Assembly (NCBI GenBank): GCA_028292405.1
Contig: JAQGMJ010000070.1
Span: 62,001 to 126,000, forward strand
Source: Betaproteobacteria bacterium
GTDB lineage: Bacteria; Pseudomonadota; Gammaproteobacteria; Burkholderiales; JAEUOS01
DNA length: 64,000 bases
Reading direction: 5' to 3'
Position 1 is the first letter of the stretch. Every line of letters starts with the position of its first letter. Below, in pieces: positions 8,991-21,185 of this stretch. Under the pieces are notes generated by a model that was not told where the DNA came from, made no database searches, and saw nothing but the letters and a program-made list of their open reading frames with translations. Both the position numbers and the translations under genes were made by a program.

Positions 8991-10805
8991 CTACGCCGGT
9001 TTTTTCGCCGGCGGCATGTCGGTGATGGTACCCAGGCCCACTTCCGCGGCGAAGAACGGCGTCTCCGACAGCGTCGGGTGCGGGTGGATGGTCAGCGCCA
9101 CGTCTTCCAGGTCCGCGCCCATTTCCAGGGCCAGGGTCAGCTCGGCGATCAGCTCGCCGGCGTTGACGCCGACGATGCCGGCGCCGAGGATGCGCTGGCT
9201 CTTCGGCTCATAGATCAGCTTGGTCAGGCCGTCGGGGCGGCCCACCGAAATCGCGCGGCCAGAAGCGGCCCAGGGAAAGACCGCGACAGCATGCTCGACA
9301 CCGTCTTTTTTCGCCTGGGTTTCGGTCAGGCCCATCCACGCCACCTCGGGGTCGGTATAGGCCACCGAGGGAATGGTCATGGCGTCGAAGGCCACCTTGT
9401 GGCCGGCGATGGTCTCGGCCGCCACATGGGCTTCGTGGGTCGCCTTGTGCGCCAGCATCGGCTCGCCGCAAATGTCGCCGATGGCGTAGATGTGCGGCAC
9501 GTTGGTGCGCTGCTGCTTGTCGACGGGAATGTAGCCGCGCTCGTTTACCGTGACGCCGGCGCCTTCGGCACCGATGTCGCGGCCGTTCGGGCGGCGGCCG
9601 ACGGCCATCAGCACGCGGTCGAACATCTGTTGCGCGGGTTGCGGACCCGTGCCTGCTTCCGCGCCCTCGAAGGTGGCGAGCAGGCCTTCGCTCTTGGCCT
9701 CGATCTTGGTCACCTTGGACTTGAGGTAGATCGCCTCGTAGCGCTTCTCGATGCGTTTTTGCAGAATCTTCACCAGGTCGCGGTCGGCGGCGGGGATCAG
9801 GCCGTCGGCGAATTCGACCACCGTCACCTTGGAACCCAGCGCATCGTAGACGCAAGCCATTTCCAGGCCGATGATGCCGCCGCCGATCACCAGCAGGCGC
9901 TTCGGAATGTCGGCCAGTTCAAGCGCGCCGGTGGAGTCGATCAGGCGCTTGTCGTCGTAAGGGAAGCCGGGAATCTTCGCCACTTGCGAGCCGGCGGCGA
10001 TGATGCAGTTGTCGAAGGAGACTTTCTTCTCGCCATCCTTGGTCTTCACCACCAGCATGTTGGGCGAGGTGAACCTGCCCACGCCTTCGACGGTGGTGAC
10101 CTTGCGGCCTTTCGCCATGCCGCCGATGCCCTTGGTCAGCTTGCCGACGACGTCATCCTTCCAGGCGCGCAGGGCATTGATGTCCACCTTCGGCTTGCCG
10201 AAGGAAATGCCGCTGTGTTCCATCTCTTCCGCTTCGGTGATCACCTTGGCGGCGTGCAGCAGGGCTTTGGAAGGGATGCAACCGACGTTCAGGCAAACGC
10301 CGCCCAGCGAGGCATAACGCTCGACCAGCACGACCTTCTTGCCGAGGTCGGCGGCGCGGAAGGCGGCGGTGTAGCCGCCGGGGCCGGAGCCCAGCACCAG
10401 CACTTCGGCATGTACGTCGCCTTGCGGCACAGGGCCGGAGGAAGGCGCGGGTGCGGCCTTGGCAGATGCAGGTGCGGCAGCGGGCGCTTGCGCAGCGGGC
10501 GCTGGCGCGGGCGCAGCAGCAGGCTTGGCCGGCGCGGCGGGAGCAGCAGCGGGCGCGGCAGCGGCAGCGCCCGCCTCCATGATGAGGATCAGGCTGCCGG
10601 TGTTGATCACGTCGCCTATCTTGACCTTGAGTTCCTTCACCACGCCGTCTTCGGGCGCGGGAATCTCCATGGTCGACTTGTCGGACTCGACCGTGATCAG
10701 CGACTGCTCTTTCGTGATCGTGTCCCCGGCTTTGACCAGGATTTCGATCACCGGCACGTCCTTGAAGTCGCCGATGTCCGGGACCTTTACTTCGATAGCG
10801 CTCAT
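8991..10805 (-). CDS. lpdA: dihydrolipoyl dehydrogenase with N-terminal lipoyl domain
   Basis: E3 of the pyruvate dehydrogenase complex, which reoxidises dihydrolipoyl groups with NAD+. The 604 residues begin with a lipoyl domain (residues 1-80, lysine in [10 protein letters not shown]) and an Ala/Pro-rich linker (about 80-115). The flavoprotein follows, with FAD fold [16 protein letters not shown] and redox disulfide CLNVGC near residue 165. A second Rossmann motif ([12 protein letters not shown]) and the C-terminal HPHPTLSE with the catalytic His are present. The fused lipoyl domain is common in betaproteobacterial E3. It is in one run with aceE and aceF. Confidence 0.96.
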
Positions 10806-10833: not shown

Positions 10834-11397
10834 TTACTTGGTGCGCATCACGTGCATATTGATCGGCCCTGCGGAGTTCTTGTCGAATTCGCAACCGGCG
10901 TTGACGCCGACTTCGGCGACTTCGCGCGCGGTCTTCGCCTTGTCGTAGGACGCATACATCGCCCCCAGCGCGAAGGTGCGGCCCGAGCCGATGGCCCAGA
11001 AGCGGTCGAAGGCGAATACTTCACGGTAGGAGTAGACGCCATAGATGCCGCTGGCGTTGGCCATCACCATGATGTAGTGCGAAGACTCGTAGGGATCGTC
11101 GTCCTCTTCCTTCGGGTTGAGGTAGAAAAACTCTTTCAGCAGCGGGTGCAGCGAAACCATGGTGGCGAATACCTCGGCCTTGCTGTTGAAGCGCGGCGCG
11201 TCGAGCTTTTTCATCGCGTTTTCCACCACGTGGTGGTGCGCGCTGGAGCCGGCGATGCCGATGAAGGTGTCCTTCACCTTGAAGATCTTCGCGTTCGCCT
11301 CGTAGCGCGACGACAGGCGCGTGTCGCCGAAGGTGGTGAGGCGGTCGGCGGCGATGGCTACCTGGTTGTTTTTCCTGACGACGGTGATGGTGGTCAT
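10834..11397 (-). CDS. proteasome-like Ntn hydrolase, betaproteobacterial proteasome homologue (BPH) type
   Basis: The 187-residue protein has the HslV-like opening [19 protein letters not shown]. Removing Met would expose Thr1. Asp17 aligns with that of HslV, and the lysine equivalent to HslV Lys33 appears as K36 in NAKIF after a three-residue longer loop. The family reading is from memory of the BPH group (tetradecameric proteasome homologues of betaproteobacteria), not from a search. No HslU/Clp-type ATPase is adjacent. The gene is embedded between aceF and lpdA in the same orientation. A classic hslV is less likely, since hslU is absent and the pdh context is unusual for it. Confidence 0.8.
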
Positions 11398-11536
11398 GTG
11401 CTTGGAGTGATCCCGGGATTGAGGTCGCCTGCCTGAACTGGGTGGCGATTATGTTTGAGCGGGCGGCGCGGCCGGAGTGTCCCGGCCGCCGCAAGGCCCA
11501 ATTATCGCGCGAGTTCGCCGGCGCGGCGATTCAAGC

Positions 11537-12880
11537 TCAGAGCAGGGTCCGGCGCATGTCGGAGAGCAGCAGCCCGAGGTGCGCGGCAAAGCGCGCGCCG
11601 GCGGCGCCGTCGATCACCCGGTGGTCGTAGGAAAGCGAGAGCGGCAGGATCAGGCGCGGCACGAACTGCTTGCCGTCCCACACCGGCTTCATCTGCGTCT
11701 TCGACACGCCGAGGATCGCCACTTCGGGCGCATTGATGATGGGCGTGAAGTAGGTGCCGCCGATGCCGCCCAGCGAGGAAATGGTGAAGCTCGCGCCCTG
11801 CATGTCCGCCGGTTTCAGCTTGCCGTCGCGCGCCTGCGCCGAGAGGTCGCCCAGGTCGTGCGCCAGTTCGATCACGCCCTTCTTGTCGGCGCCCTTGATC
11901 ACCGGCACTACCAGGCCGTTGGGCGTGTCCGCGGCGAAGCCGATGTTGTAGTACTTCTTCAACACCAGGTTGTCGCCTTCGAGCGAGGAGTTGAAGTCCG
12001 GGTACTTTTTCAGCGCGGCGATACTGGCCTTGATGATGAAGGCCAGCATGGTCAGCTTGACGCCGGACTTGGCGATGGATTCGTTGGTGGACTTGCGGAA
12101 TTCTTCCAGCTCGGTGACGTCCGCCTCTTCGTTTTGCGTGACGTGGGGAATCATCACCCAGTTGCGGTGCAGGTTCGCGCCGGAAATCTTTTTGATGCGC
12201 GACAGCGGCACCGACTCGGTCTCGCCGAACTTGCTGAAGTCCACCTTCGGCCAGGGCAGCAGGTTGAGCCCGCCGCCGGCAGCCACCGCCGCGCCGGGGG
12301 CTGCAGCACCGCCGCCTTGCAGGGCCTGCTTGACGAAGTTCTGCACGTCTTCATGCAGCACGCGGTTCTTCGGGCCGTTGCCGGCAACGCGCGACAGATC
12401 GACGCCGAGTTCGCGGGCGAACTTGCGCACCGAAGGCGAAGCGTGCGGCTTGTCGCCCGAGGGCGCTTGCGCCAGGGGCTGCACCGGCGTGGTCGTCGGC
12501 GGGGGCGCTTCTTCCGTCGTCGCTGCTGCCTGGAAGCCTTGCGGCGCGACCGGGGCCGGCGCGGGTGCCGGCGCAGGCACCGCTGCGGCTGGCGCGGGCG
12601 CCGCCTTGGCGGCAGCAGGCGCAGCAGCGGGCGCCTCGGCGGCGCCCTCTTCCATCACCGCGATCAGGCTGCCCGTGTTGACCACGTCGCCGATCTTGAT
12701 CTTCAGTTCCTTGATCACCCCGCCGGCGGGCGAGGGGATTTCCATGGTGGACTTGTCGGACTCGACGGTGATCAGCGAGTCTTCCGCCTTCACCGTGTCG
12801 CCGACCTTGACCAGGATCTCGATCACCGGCACGTCCTTGAAATCGCCGATGTCGGGTACTACAACTTCTCTAACGCCCAT
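11537..12880 (-). CDS. aceF: pyruvate dehydrogenase E2, dihydrolipoamide acetyltransferase
   Basis: Transfers the acetyl group from lipoyllysine to CoA and forms the core of the complex. The 447 residues contain one lipoyl domain (1-80, [12 protein letters not shown]), a long Ala/Pro linker, a peripheral subunit-binding domain ([20 protein letters not shown], near 145) and the catalytic domain ending in [17 protein letters not shown] with the active His and Asp. A single lipoyl domain is fewer than the three in E. coli. The gene follows aceE after 63 bases. Confidence 0.97.
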
Positions 12881-12943: not shown

Positions 12944-15661
12944 TTATACGTGCGTGGGGTCGGGCTTGTTCACATCGAGCTCGTACTTCTTGATCGCATC
13001 GGCCACGGTTTGCGCCGGCACCGCGCCGTCCTCGGCCAAGGCGCGCAGGGCAGCCACGGTCACCCAGTAGCGGTTCACTTCGAAGAAGTGGCGCAGTTGC
13101 TCGCGCGTGTCGGAGCGGCCGAAGCCGTCGGTACCCAGCACCTTGTACGTGCGGCCCTTCGGCATGAATTCGCGGATGCCGTCGGCAAAGGCCTTCATGT
13201 AGTCGCTGGTGGCGATTACCGGGCCGCTGGTCTTTTCCAGGCACTGCTCGACATAGGACTTCTTGCGCTCGCCGGTCGGATTGAGCAGGTTCTGGCGGTC
13301 GACTGCCAGGCCTTCGCGGCGCAGCTCGGTAAAGCTCGGGCAGCTCCAGATGTCGGCGGCGACCTTCCAGTCCTTTTCCAGCAATTCAGCGGCGGCCATC
13401 GCTTCGCGCAGGATCACGCCGGAGCCCAGCAGCTGCACCCGGTTCTTCGCCTTCGAGGTGGAAGTCTTGAACGAGTACATGCCCTTGATGATGCCTTCCT
13501 CGGCGCCCTTGGGCATTTCGGGATGCTCGTAATTCTCGTTCATCACCGTGAGGTAGTAGTACACGTCCTCCTGGTCCTGCACCATGCGCTTCAAGCCGTG
13601 CTGGATGATCACCGCCAGTTCGTACGACCAGGTGGGGTCGTAGGAGACACAGTTGGGGATGGTGGCCGAGAGCAGGTGCGAATGGCCGTCTTCGTGCTGC
13701 AGGCCTTCGCCGTTGAGGGTGGTGCGCCCGGCGGTGCCGCCGAGCAAAAAGCCGCGCGCCCGCAGGTCGCCCGCCGCCCAGGCGAGGTCGCCGATGCGCT
13801 GAAACCCGAACATCGAGTAATAGATGTAGAACGGGATCATGATCTGGTTGGTGTTCGTGTAGCTGGTCGCCGCGGCGATCCAGGAACAGAACGAACCGGC
13901 TTCGTTGATGCCCTCTTCCAGCACCTGCCCCGCCTTGTCTTCGCGGTAGTACATCACCTGCTCTTTGTCCACCGGCACGTACTTCTGCCCTTCGGCGGAG
14001 TAGATGCCCAACTGCCGGAACATGCCTTCCATGCCGAAGGTGCGCGCCTCATCAGGCACGATGGGCACGATGTACTTGCCGATGTTCTTGTCGCGCAAGA
14101 GCTGCGTCAGGATGCGCACGAAGGCCATCGTGGTCGAATTCTCGCGGCCTTCGCCGCTACCCTTGAGTTGCGCCTCGAACACCTCCAGCTTCGGCACCTC
14201 GAGGGAGGCGCCCGCCTTGCGGCGGCGCTGCGGCAGGTAGCCGCCCAGGGCCCTGCGGCGTTCCTGCAGGTATTCGTTGAGCGGGTCCTTGGGTTCCGGC
14301 TTGAACAGCGGCAGATCGTGCAGTTGCGCGTCGGTGAAGGGGATGTTGAAGCGGTCGCGGAATTCGCGGATGGTTTCGATCTCCAGCTTTTTCAGCTGGT
14401 GGGTCGGGTTCTTCGCCTGGCCGGCCTTGCCCAGGCCGTAGCCCTTGATGGTCTTGGCGAGAATCACCGTCGGCTGGCCCTTGTGGTTCACCGCCGAGTG
14501 GTACGCCGCGTAGATCTTGTGCGGGTCGTGGCCGCCGCGGTTCAGGCGCCAGACGTCGTCGTCGCTCATGCGCGAGACCATCTCCAGGGTCTCGGGATAC
14601 TTGCCGAAGAAGTGTTCGCGCACATAGGCGCCGTCGTTGGCCTTGAAGTTCTGGTATTCGCCGTCGACCGCTTCTTCCATCCGCTGCAGCAGCTTGCCGG
14701 TGGTGTCGCGGGCGAACAGCGGGTCCCAGTAGGCGCCCCAGATCAGCTTGATCACGTTCCAGCCGGCGCCGCGGAAATCGGCTTCCAGTTCCTGGATGAT
14801 CTTGCCGTTGCCGCGCACCGGGCCGTCCAGGCGCTGCAGGTTGCAGTTGACGATGAAGATCAGGTTGTCGAGCTTTTCACGAACCGCCAGGCCGATGGCG
14901 CCGAGGGACTCGGGCTCGTCCATTTCGCCGTCGCCGCAGAATACCCAGACCTTGCGGTTGGAAGTGTCGGCAATGCCGCGGGCGTGCAGGTATTTGAGGA
15001 AGCGCGCTTGATAGATGGCTTGCAGCGGCCCCAGGCCCATCGACACGGTGGGGAATTGCCAGAAGTCCGGCATCAGCCAGGGGTGCGGGTAGGAGGAGAT
15101 GCCCTTGCCGTCGACTTCGCGGCGGAAGTTCAGTATTTGCTCCTCGGACAGGCGCCCTTCCATGTAGGCGCGGCCATAGATGCCGGGGGCGGAGTGGCCC
15201 TGGATGTAGACCAGGTCGCCGCCGTGGTCGGCGGTGGGGGCGTGCCAGAAATGGTTGAAGCCGACTTCCATCAGGGTTGAGACGGAAGCATAGGAAGCAA
15301 TGTGGCCGCCGAGATCGCCTTCGGCCTTGTTCGCCTTGGCCACCATCGCCATCGCGTTCCAGCGGATCAGCGAGCGGATGCGCTCTTCCATCGCGTGGTC
15401 GCCCGGGCTCTTGACCTCGAGATGCGGCGGGATGGTGTTGATGTAGGCGGTGTTGGCGCTATAGGGCAGGTAGGCGCCCGAGCGGCGCGCCTTGTCGACC
15501 AGGCGCTCGAGCAGGAAGTGCGCACGCTCAGGGCCTTCGCGCGACAGCACCGCTTCCAGGGCATCGACCCACTCCTGGGTTTCCTGGGCGTCGCTGTCGC
15601 CGGCGGCGGGGACGGGGACGGGGACGGGATTGGAAGATGGAAAATTCAGTACTGCGGCCAT
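12944..15661 (-). CDS. aceE: pyruvate dehydrogenase E1 component, homodimeric
   Basis: Thiamine-diphosphate enzyme that decarboxylates pyruvate and acetylates the E2 lipoyl group. I choose ATG 15661, since it has a GAGGGAA ribosome site 5 bases upstream and gives 905 residues. The frame extends 20 residues further but without a ribosome site. The ThDP-binding motif GDGEMDEPES is present near residue 250, and the whole protein is of the homodimeric AceE type. It is the first gene of a long minus-strand run and is preceded by an AT-rich promoter region. Confidence 0.97.
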   Translation of the reverse strand: MAAVLNFPSSNPVPVPVPAAGDSDAQETQEWVDALEAVLSREGPERAHFLLERLVDKARRSGAYLPYSANTAYINTIPPHLEVKSPGDHAMEERIRSLIRWNAMAMVAKANKAEGDLGGHIASYASVSTLMEVGFNHFWHAPTADHGGDLVYIQGHSAPGIYGRAYMEGRLSEEQILNFRREVDGKGISSYPHPWLMPDFWQFPTVSMGLGPLQAIYQARFLKYLHARGIADTSNRKVWVFCGDGEMDEPESLGAIGLAVREKLDNLIFIVNCNLQRLDGPVRGNGKIIQELEADFRGAGWNVIKLIWGAYWDPLFARDTTGKLLQRMEEAVDGEYQNFKANDGAYVREHFFGKYPETLEMVSRMSDDDVWRLNRGGHDPHKIYAAYHSAVNHKGQPTVILAKTIKGYGLGKAGQAKNPTHQLKKLEIETIREFRDRFNIPFTDAQLHDLPLFKPEPKDPLNEYLQERRRALGGYLPQRRRKAGASLEVPKLEVFEAQLKGSGEGRENSTTMAFVRILTQLLRDKNIGKYIVPIVPDEARTFGMEGMFRQLGIYSAEGQKYVPVDKEQVMYYREDKAGQVLEEGINEAGSFCSWIAAATSYTNTNQIMIPFYIYYSMFGFQRIGDLAWAAGDLRARGFLLGGTAGRTTLNGEGLQHEDGHSHLLSATIPNCVSYDPTWSYELAVIIQHGLKRMVQDQEDVYYYLTVMNENYEHPEMPKGAEEGIIKGMYSFKTSTSKAKNRVQLLGSGVILREAMAAAELLEKDWKVAADIWSCPSFTELRREGLAVDRQNLLNPTGERKKSYVEQCLEKTSGPVIATSDYMKAFADGIREFMPKGRTYKVLGTDGFGRSDTREQLRHFFEVNRYWVTVAALRALAEDGAVPAQTVADAIKKYELDVNKPDPTHV

Positions 15662-16074
15662 TGCTGTTCCCTCATGAGGCTTTTGAGTCTTGACGAAAAA
15701 ATGCCGGCTGCCGGGGGTCACCCGTTCACCGGCCTCGCGACGTTGCGCGGCGCTTCAAGCTTGGCTGATTTCCGTGACAAACACAATCACGCAGCGCCGC
15801 ATAAATCGCTACCCGCAGTACCCAATATTTTTCCGTCTCCATAGTGCTGCCGCAGTACTGCCTTATCTCCGGATTTTTATGTCTTTGGAATTTATTAAGT
15901 ACTTACTTAAAAATATTTTACCCGAGCTTTTTCACTCTGGAAAGTTGCAGCGCAACATAGAGTGAAGGAATAGCGATGCAGCCGGTTGCCGCAGGGAGTT
16001 ACGGCGGCGGCTTGCGGTGGGGAGTTACTGCGATTTCGGTCGCAAGCTACGAGGGCGCTTGCCGCGACGGGTCA
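15662..16074 (-). other. aceE upstream region
   Basis: No coding signal is visible. The segment 15880-15930 is strongly AT-rich (TAAGTACTTA palindrome, then a run of A and T) and is the best candidate for the aceE promoter on the minus strand. A perfect 10-bp palindrome GCAGTACTGC at 15852-15861 and a similar CCGCAGTACCC at 15811-15822 could be operator sites. The regulator is unknown. Confidence 0.45.
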
Positions 16075-18238: not shown

Positions 18239-19615
18239 TTATAACGCGAATTTCGGCACTTTTGCCGCAAATTCAACCAGTTGGGCCGCCAGATCGGGTT
18301 GCATCGCAGCACGCGAGGCCCAGCCGTCGGCGTGGCTCTGCAGCGCCGCGCGTTCCCTGGTCAGCGCGGACCAGTTGCGCGGCCAATCGGCGGCGGCAAT
18401 GCCGTTCCAGCCGTGCCAGGCGGCCTGCATTGCCGTCGCGGCTCCTTCGGGCAGAGCGGCGCGGTAACGCCGCCAGAACGCCGTCAGCTTTTCATGATGC
18501 GCCGCCTCCGCCTGCGGATAAATCTGCCAGACAAAGGGCCGCGCAGCCCATTGCGCGCGCACGAAGGAGTCTTCGCCGCGCACGAAGTTGAGGTCGCAGG
18601 CCCACAGCAGGCGGTCGTAGCCCGGTTGGTCGGTGAAGGGCAGCACATGTACGGCAAGTTGCCCGCGCGACCATTGCGCGCCTGCCTGCACCGCTTTGGC
18701 GTCCCCCGCGCCAAAGAACGCCGCCACCTGCGGCAGCGCCCGGCCCACCGGCACCAGGCAGCGCACCGCCACATCACCTTCGGCCCACGCTGCCAGCAGT
18801 TCCGGCAACGCCAGGTTTTCATAGGCGAAGAGGGAGATGCGCAACTCGCCTGACGGGGCCTCTTCGCGCGGCGGCACGTCAAGGGCGCGCCACAGCACCG
18901 CCTGCGCGGCCGCGTCGGCCTGGAACTTGGCGCGCACCTGCAGCAGCCCGCGCTCGCGCAGCAGGCCGCCGGTGGCCGCTGTGAAGCCGGGGAAGAAGAA
19001 GTATTTGTTCAGCGGCGGCGGACGTGTCGAAGCAACCGCGGCGGCACTCGCCTTCTCCCGCCGGTCCGCATCTGCACCGGCCTGCTCGCTCGCGGCCGCG
19101 CCCGCAGCGCCAACGCGCGCCCCTGCCCCAGCCTCAGCATCGTCAACGCCACCTGCCTCAGCATCAGCATCGTCAACCCCACCTGCGCCGGCACCTGCGG
19201 ACGCAATCGCCGCCGGCACGTTCTGCGGCGAGGCGAGCTTGTGCGTGCCTTCCACCCAGTCTTCCGCGCTGAGATATTCGAGGTTGATCCACACCGGCCG
19301 CGCGACGCGGCGCGCCATGCCTTGCACATAGGCTTGCGGCAGCTCGCAGGCGAAGGCTTCGATCACCACATCGGCAATCGCATCCTCCGCCGTCACCGCG
19401 CCTTCGCGCCACTGACGCAGTTCCACTTTCTCCACCATCTGCACCGCCAGCGCCACATCCAGCCCGACGCCCATGTGCGCCAGCGCCGCCGGCTCGTCGA
19501 TCCACAGGCGCGGCGCCAGGCCGTACTCGGCCGCGAGCTGGCGCGCCAGGCGCCAGGTGACGCCGGCGTCGCCGTAGTTGTCCACCACGCGGCAGAAAAT
19601 ATCCCAGACCTGCAT
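18239..19615 (-). CDS. earP: EF-P arginine rhamnosyltransferase with an internal low-complexity insertion
   Basis: Transfers rhamnose from dTDP-rhamnose to Arg32 of EF-P (GT-B fold). ATG 19615 is the natural start ([18 protein letters not shown], a family hallmark). The middle hallmark [19 protein letters not shown] is present. The length of 458 exceeds the usual 370-400. Between [19 protein letters not shown] and NKYFFFPGF there is a run of roughly 65 Ala/Gly/Asp-rich residues (about 134-204) built partly from a repeated GGVDDAxA unit. The insertion lies in the linker between the two Rossmann domains, so activity may persist. Confidence 0.95.
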
Positions 19616-19664
19616 CGTTTCCCTCAACACCGCATCGCGCGCGGCATGCGTGGTTAAATGCGCC

Positions 19665-21185
19665 ATGCGTTCAACCAACAATGTTCCAGAGGGCGCAGCC
19701 GCGGGTCTCGCCACACCCGCCGCCCCTGCCGCGCCTTCCCCGACGAAGCGCCGCCTCGACGCCCTGCGCCACCGCCCTTCGCTGCGCGACGCCTTGATCA
19801 TCTGGCTGCCGCTGCTGGCGCTGGTGATCGGCGCTTTCTGGCTGACCTACCACTTCCTGCAGCCGGCCCCGCCCGACCATTTGAGCATTGCCACCGGCGC
19901 CACCGACGGCGCCTATTACCAGAACGCCCTCAAATACCGCGCGATTCTCGCACGCGACGGCGTGCGCCTGGATGTGAGGGCCACCGGCGGCTCGGTGGAG
20001 AACCTGAAACTCCTCAAGGACGACGCCAGCGAAACGGATGCCGCCTTCGTCCAGGGCGGCTTCGGCCCGCTCGGCAGCGGCACGCCGCAGGAGCCCGACG
20101 CCACGCAATTGCATTCCCTTGGCAATCTCGCCTTTGAGGCCGTCTGGGTCTTCGTGCGCGGCAAGAAGGAGCCGACCCGCTTGACCGAACTGGGCGGCGC
20201 GCGTCTGGCCATCGGCGCGCCCGGCAGCGGCACGCGCAAGGTGGCGCTGGACCTGCTGGCCGCGCACGGCATCGCGCCGGACAGCCCGAAACTCTCGCCG
20301 CTTTCCGGCGCCGCCGCCATCGCCGCGCTTAAGGCCGGTACGCTCGACGCCATCTTCCTGATCGCCGCGCCGGACGCGCCGGTGGTGCGCCAGCTTGCCG
20401 CCGCGCCGGACGTGCATGTGATGAGCTTCGCCAACGCACCCGCCATCGCCAAGCGCTTCCCCTATCTCACCGCCGTCACGCTGACGCAAAGCGTGTTCGA
20501 CCTCAAGGCCGACCTGCCGCCGCACGACGTGCAACTGGTGGCGACCAAGGCCAACCTGGTGGTGCGTGAAGACCTGCATCCCGCCCTCGCCTACCTGCTG
20601 CTCGAAGCCGCCACCGAAGTGCATGGCGGCCCCGGCCTGTTCCACAACGCCGGCGACTTCCCCTCAGCGGTGGCCACCGACTTTCCGCTGGCCGACCAGG
20701 CCCAGAGTTTTTACAAGAACGGCCGTCCCTTCCTGCAGCGCTACATGCCGTTCTGGCTCGCCAACCTGGTGCAGCGCATGCTGCTGTTCCTGCTTCCCGT
20801 CATCGGCGTGCTGATCCCGGTGATCAAGTTCCTGCCTTCCATCATCAACTGGCGGCGGCAAAAGCGCATCAACCGCTGGTACGGCGAGCTGAAGGCGCTG
20901 GAGCTCGAGCTCGACGCGCATGAGGTGAAGCCCGCGGACCTGGAACGCCACCTCGCGCGCCTGGAAGAAATCGAAGAGGCCGTGCGCTACATGAACATGC
21001 CGCTGGACTTCAGCGACCGCGTCTACACCCTGCGCATGCACATCGCCTTCGTGCGGGCGCGGCTGGACGGGTTGCAACAAAACGAAGACCCGGGCCGTTT
21101 CGCTAACGGCCGCGCCAACGACACCGCCAATCAAAACCCGAACCCCCACGTCACCGCGGGCGAACCGCCGAAAGCCCCCGCATGA
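19665..21185 (+). CDS. TAXI-family TRAP transporter binding protein, membrane-anchored
   Basis: The 506-residue protein begins at ATG 19665, since a start further upstream would overlap earP. It has one N-terminal membrane segment (about residues 47-70), a TAXI periplasmic ligand domain starting IATGATDGAYYQNALKYRAI, and a second membrane segment near residue 395 (LFLLPVIGVLIPVIKFLP). A helical tail of about 95 residues follows on the other side of the membrane. Classic TAXI proteins are soluble, so the double anchor suggests a sensor or a fixed receptor. No TRAP permease genes are beside it. It overlaps srkA by 4 bases. Confidence 0.8.
   Translation: MRSTNNVPEGAAAGLATPAAPAAPSPTKRRLDALRHRPSLRDALIIWLPLLALVIGAFWLTYHFLQPAPPDHLSIATGATDGAYYQNALKYRAILARDGVRLDVRATGGSVENLKLLKDDASETDAAFVQGGFGPLGSGTPQEPDATQLHSLGNLAFEAVWVFVRGKKEPTRLTELGGARLAIGAPGSGTRKVALDLLAAHGIAPDSPKLSPLSGAAAIAALKAGTLDAIFLIAAPDAPVVRQLAAAPDVHVMSFANAPAIAKRFPYLTAVTLTQSVFDLKADLPPHDVQLVATKANLVVREDLHPALAYLLLEAATEVHGGPGLFHNAGDFPSAVATDFPLADQAQSFYKNGRPFLQRYMPFWLANLVQRMLLFLLPVIGVLIPVIKFLPSIINWRRQKRINRWYGELKALELELDAHEVKPADLERHLARLEEIEEAVRYMNMPLDFSDRVYTLRMHIAFVRARLDGLQQNEDPGRFANGRANDTANQNPNPHVTAGEPPKAPA

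Follow-up and report, generated by a model that had tools for sequence, protein, structure and literature searches.

BPH, a proteasome-like family of betaproteobacteria taken to descend from HslV (Fuchs et al. 2017, PMC5777263), is one among many proteasome-like homologues (Fuchs et al. 2021, PMC8665760). The 2021 paper makes no mention of operons in its main text. Fuchs et al. 2017 describe BPH genes in three prevailing operon contexts, i.e. argG, the pyruvate dehydrogenase complex (PDC; example Cupriavidus metallidurans) and Hsp33, which its authors attribute to an earlier study (PMC5777263). For two homologues the rings are described there as tetradecameric, 7-fold double rings, and epoxomicin modifies Thr1; many substrates were assayed and none revealed peptidase activity, and BPH is presented as having no partner ATPase (PMC5777263). 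The same text states that HslU-contact residues are not conserved in BPH and that neither a PDC subunit nor HslU was recovered in a pull-down with C. metallidurans BPH. Its authors considered a link via oxidative damage of PDC; carbonylation patterns were unchanged in the published tests, oxidative-stress tests were negative and the section is headed 'constitutively expressed' (PMC5777263). Finally, all BPHs outside Betaproteobacteria are given in that paper as Ser1 forms.

The gene analysed here lies in a 64,000-nucleotide stretch of a betaproteobacterial contig (the window, to which plain coordinates refer). The initial annotation, made from this sequence, had claimed a proteasome homologue of the BPH family with Thr1 and Asp17, located between aceF and lpdA in the same orientation. 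This was confirmed: positions 10834..11397 of the minus strand hold an intact ORF of 187 codons with an ATG start, whose product of 187 aa is a Thr1-type proteasome-like Ntn hydrolase subunit. It scored 31.6 bits with PF00227 (Pfam Proteasome; cut-off 22.4), and a phmmer comparison with all solved structures returned C. metallidurans BPH (5ovu, E 1.3e-61) first and Thiobacillus denitrificans BPH (5ovs, E 2.5e-37) second, the third match, HslV, reaching E 0.00069; the likeness to the solved BPHs goes far beyond chance. Counting from the residue that would follow removal of Met1, residue 1 is Thr, without propeptide, and residue 17 is Asp; equivalents of Lys33, Gly47 (the oxyanion Gly), Ser129, Asp166 and Ser169 were all found by alignment. 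Between helix 2 and strand 7 there is also the long acidic pore loop, which aligns with the Cupriavidus loop. It is encoded at approximately 11077..11118 (minus strand; residues 94-106 counting Met1), its role being assigned after the main text of PMC5777263. NG86 dN/dS values against the two nearest relatives were 0.153/1.255 and 0.205/0.796; the gene is therefore under purifying selection.

The closest described system, C. metallidurans BPH (Rmet_1198, PDB 5ovu; PMC5777263, main text), has the family, Thr1, the acidic pore loop and the PDC operon context in common with the window BPH. The only differences found were that the latter comes from a different genus-level lineage and that, with its 187 aa, its C-terminus is reached soon past the last shared strand. 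T. denitrificans BPH (PDB 5ovs, 5ovt) shares the fold family and the catalytic residues. It is of the argG type according to PMC5777263 (main text), whereas the window BPH stands in a PDC context, and its loop reads DLESS where that of the window BPH reads DPYESS. Judged from its sequence, the window gene is a genuine member of the known, poorly understood BPH family.

The annotation had also called the product 'HslV-like', which is right as a remote likeness, since Thr1, Asp17, Lys33 and the proteasome beta fold are common to the window BPH and HslV (ClpQ) of HslVU, and wrong for HslV proper. NCBIfam HslV models gave 30.3 bits (cut-off 137) and 29.4 bits (cut-off 157.75), and with about 30 bits against such cut-offs the identification as HslV was rejected. 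Unlike HslV, moreover, the window BPH has the long acidic loop and no adjacent hslU. Three PF00227 genes were counted in the genome, i.e. the window BPH, a genuine hslV (L250) directly followed by hslU on contig C12, away from BPH, and a third gene (L251:5998-6729), separate from the window gene, which adjoins a DUF2126/transglutaminase gene. We take the latter neighbourhood to be that of Anbu, a proteasome-like family (PF00227) as BPH is. The window gene is not a clear HslV whose hslU lies elsewhere: hslV and hslU of this genome are genes of their own. None of the nine frames scanned near the window BPH encodes an ATPase, its neighbours being aceF and lpdA, in line with the missing ATPase partner pointed out in the annotation. 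As the genuine hslV-hslU pair is separate and no ATPase gene is adjacent, BPH truly has no ATPase gene close by.

All genes of the cluster are on the minus strand, in the order aceE-aceF-BPH-lpdA. The first, aceE (pyruvate dehydrogenase E1; 12944..15721, TIGR00759 1475.8 bits), was delimited at the first possible start, which may be too early. It is followed by aceF (dihydrolipoyl acetyltransferase, E2; 11537..12880, TIGR01348 617 bits), immediately upstream of BPH, and, downstream of BPH, by lpdA (dihydrolipoyl dehydrogenase, E3; 8991..10805, TIGR01350 505 bits), whose product has an N-terminal lipoyl domain (Biotin_lipoyl). The gap between BPH and lpdA is 28 nt and that between aceF and BPH 139 nt. 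The latter (11398..11536, minus strand) contains a GC-rich hairpin without T-run that is more stable than shuffled sequence (z -2.54). Neither promoter-like nor intrinsic-terminator-like sites were found on the minus strand between aceF and lpdA. Elsewhere in the window, positions 18239-19801 encode EarP, the elongation factor P arginine rhamnosyltransferase (TIGR03837 473.5 bits vs 347.05).

To place this cluster among others, the neighbourhoods of BPH genes were surveyed. Counting the window's own genome each time, BPH was detected in 151 of 399 genomes of its order, in 36 of 274 genomes of its class and in 19 of 41 relatives. A search of viral contigs found no BPH, and when the phylum was searched with a Ser1 query, matches came from 6 of 299 genomes, all within the class; the Ser1 forms reported from other phyla therefore lie outside this sample. 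One genome of the class survey has a BPH apparently in three pieces and different frames (G185:C1:1041124-1041674), from which it follows that the gene can be lost.

Context labels were assigned by tblastn within 2.5 kb with the precedence PDC, RIB, ARGG, YAJQ, HSP33, HSP15, CINA, a locus receiving one label even when two neighbours were present. On representatives, Hsp33, YajQ, RibE, RibD and ArgG were above a family cut-off; the Hsp15 representative was below it (109.5 of 148), yet its match spans nearly the full length, and the CinA neighbour was recognised by eye only. Among the best-scoring 80 named loci of the species collection, i.e. the closest kin, towards which this figure is biased, BPH is preceded by aceF, followed by lpdA, or both in 77; the remaining three have Hsp33 (L115), Hsp15 (L127) or none of the query genes (L108). 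With the same linkage in 77 of 80 loci, the idea of a one-genome accident was rejected. A suspected extra gene between BPH and lpdA in 11 loci was likewise discarded in 10 of them, where LpdA proved to begin with additional lipoyl-domain sequence; in L076 another frame was picked. An extra lipoyl domain opening LpdA directly after BPH was noted in L072, L083, L085, L114, L121, L126 and L128-L130.

The genus-sampled set gives a broader picture. It comprises 69 Burkholderiales loci from 68 of the 69 other BPH-bearing genera (g251 was left out and one genus gave two loci), labelled HSP33 (25), ARGG (17), PDC (12), HSP15 (6) or other (9); one HSP15 gene is 2.4 kb from BPH (L195). As only 12 of 69 are of the PDC type, PDC linkage is not general to BPH. 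The gene yajQ is downstream in all 17 ARGG loci, once at 2.7 kb. Outside the order, 25 gammaproteobacterial loci were included (25 of the 35 matching genomes, the window's own excluded), and BPH stands between ribD and ribE in 16 of them and elsewhere in 9. Contig ends may truncate two of the loci labelled other. The median upstream gap to BPH is 40.5 nt for aceF, 9.5 nt for ribD and 325 nt for argG, and the median gap to the downstream gene ranges from 4 to 26 nt across contexts. The earlier study credited with the operon contexts is, judging from its description, probably Valas and Bourne 2008.

A maximum-likelihood tree of 92 rows, excluding the most divergent class-level loci (L246-L249), united the PDC rows (13 of 13) in one clade, supported at 98/98. 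The six context labels require 10 changes on this tree, against a shuffled mean of 55.8, and a test of the ribD-ribE rows plus one neighbour did not reject their forming a single clade (p-AU 0.549). The PDC context of BPH has a single origin. Given such clade-wise contexts and the tight packing, BPH moved into a small number of housekeeping operons, where it has remained.

The Thr1/Ser1 character changes 5 times on the same tree. In 95 of 95 sequences, positions 17, 33 and 47 are invariant and position 1 is Thr or Ser, a Thr/Ser count that leans on start codons chosen by a script with a preference for Ser/Thr in second place; starts placed by alignment alone gave the same residue 1 for the loci displayed. 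Residue 1 is Ser in 16 of 16 RIB sequences (L225-L236 and L238-L241, e.g. L231:6001-6576) and Thr in all PDC (13/13), HSP33 (25/25) and HSP15 (6/6) sequences. The ARGG set has 16 Thr and 1 Ser and the set labelled other 13 Thr and 5 Ser; Ser1 thus also occurs outside the ribD-ribE context. The Ser1 member of the argG type in Burkholderiales (L222; its counterpart L047 likewise begins with Ser) is an exception to the Thr/Ser split published in the main text of PMC5777263. The four very divergent BPH-like genes L246-L249, three of which have a VNDQC-type loop instead of the usual one, may belong to a family described in 2021 (PMC8665760, main text) rather than to BPH.

The presence of BPH in a PDC operon is already in print in its essentials, and the window gene adds a family member. 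The gene-order survey showed that the linkage to pdh genes underlying the initial annotation is conserved and that it is also lineage-specific, and part of the contexts appear in PMC5777263 (main text). What is new is the neighbourhood survey of BPH loci, including the ribD-ribE context of Ser1 BPHs. The main texts of PMC5777263 and PMC8665760 name this context nowhere, and our literature search found no report of BPH in it.

In our view, it is rather probable that BPH is an ATPase-independent Thr peptidase double ring which, by one ancestral insertion, came to be steadily expressed within the PDC operon, with the dehydrogenase serving it neither as partner nor as principal substrate. Subunits would self-assemble into a double ring with Thr1 exposed inside the barrel, and the long acidic loop would line the entrance as a gate. 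The barrel would then trim or degrade a restricted set of unfolded or short polypeptides, presumably with no ATPase needed. One ancestral insertion between aceF and lpdA, in one Burkholderiales lineage, would have given the gene steady expression alongside a housekeeping operon and not a partnership. The identity of the window gene, its intact catalytic residues, the clade-specific linkage, the single origin of the PDC context and the presence of BPH in genomes without an HslU match are observed here; ring, nucleophile and gate are established on homologues, with ring structure and inhibitor binding for two of them (PMC5777263, main text). Structure and inhibitor binding are the grounds for the label 'peptidase', as no BPH showed peptidase activity in the assays reported in the main text of the same paper.

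The annotation had proposed that BPH may act on the dehydrogenase complex or be co-regulated with it. Co-regulation is favoured by the shared strand, the small gaps and an aceF-BPH gap of -4 (stop and start overlap) in 5 of the 12 surveyed PDC loci; action on PDC was not supported. The linkage, conserved yet lineage-specific, supports shared expression, not such action. A dedicated PDC quality-control protease, clearing oxidised or unassembled subunits or trimming the flexible linkers of AceF and LpdA, would fit the tight same-strand linkage through the whole PDC clade and in nearly all the best named loci, the 4-nt overlap, and the oxidative-damage link considered by Fuchs et al. 2017 (PMC5777263, main text), but we regard it as unlikely. 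BPHs of other clades are housed in unrelated operons, and the PDC operon is retained without BPH: aceF and lpdA are same-strand neighbours in all 19 BPH-less relatives having a full-length aceF, the gap being at most 126 nt in 14, between 258 and 531 nt in 3 and above 1 kb in 2. These came from 20 BPH-less relatives hand-picked from families holding PDC-type BPHs, the 20th of which (G275, 84% complete) showed no PDC-type aceF. The published pull-down without PDC subunits and the unchanged carbonylation patterns also speak against this role (PMC5777263, main text). Retention of aceF-lpdA without BPH, together with the negative pull-down, is therefore evidence against a dedicated PDC role, and the survey suggests that the location is the inherited housing of one lineage, not a sign of work on the dehydrogenase. 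That the linkage persisted while the sampled PDC genera diverged could reflect function and not inertia alone.

The argG-yajQ (17), PDC (12) and ribD-ribE (16) loci are not classical stress operons. This makes it improbable, to a similar degree, that BPH is a general stress protease, although 31 of the 69 Burkholderiales loci carry an hsp33 or hsp15 label. Fuchs et al. 2017 (PMC5777263, main text) argue that the contexts (hsp33, hsp15, arginine, PDC) mirror joint induction under heat or oxidation; the section heading 'constitutively expressed' and the negative oxidative-stress tests of the same text stand against it.

HslU was matched at E 1e-60 in 294 of the 399 genomes of the order, i.e. in 135 of 151 BPH genomes and 159 of 248 others (Fisher p 1e-8, not corrected for kinship, many BPH-less genomes being small), and this co-occurrence above plain-table expectation leaves some room for an HslU link. 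That BPH recruits the HslU of the hslVU locus and serves it as an additional proteolytic chamber is nonetheless very improbable despite HslU in the window's genome and in most BPH genomes, because HslU went unmatched in 16 of the 151 genomes with BPH, including three of family f195 that are 99-100% complete (G300, G635, G660) and whose BPHs (L186, L177, L174) have intact active-site residues, and because the contact residues are not conserved and HslU was missing from the pull-down (PMC5777263, main text).

Besides the ATPase-independent peptidase ring preferred here, a lead on peptide processing emerged from three genomes of one genus (G390, G428, G612) with two BPHs each. In all three, the second BPH lies directly behind a prolyl aminopeptidase gene, its start being no more than a few nucleotides from the end of that gene (L209:5018-6570, L258:4018-5570 and, on the minus strand, L259 6529-4977; TIGR01249 376 bits vs 259.75). 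The L209 copy is a Ser1 form, to which the other two second copies are 87 and 97% identical. As only one genus is concerned, the pairing probably represents one event. Prolyl aminopeptidase is the only neighbour identified as a peptidase among those annotated in the survey. Archaea have a pathway in which a proteasome is combined with trimming peptidases. It is conceivable, if rather doubtful, that BPH is a free-standing peptide-processing barrel that moved a few times among housekeeping operons (PDC, argG-yajQ, hsp15/hsp33, ribD-ribE) and acts upstream of exopeptidases; the second BPH with prolyl aminopeptidase would then be the counterpart of the archaeal pathway, and the published inactivity would reflect wrong peptide substrates.

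If the neighbourhood is inherited housing, the hunt for a substrate in the PDC operon would be a dead end and the common denominator of BPHs would lie elsewhere. In the search for the activity, substrate and partner of a family with solved structures, the ribD-ribE context of Ser1 BPHs and the pairing with prolyl aminopeptidase offer two fresh entry points.
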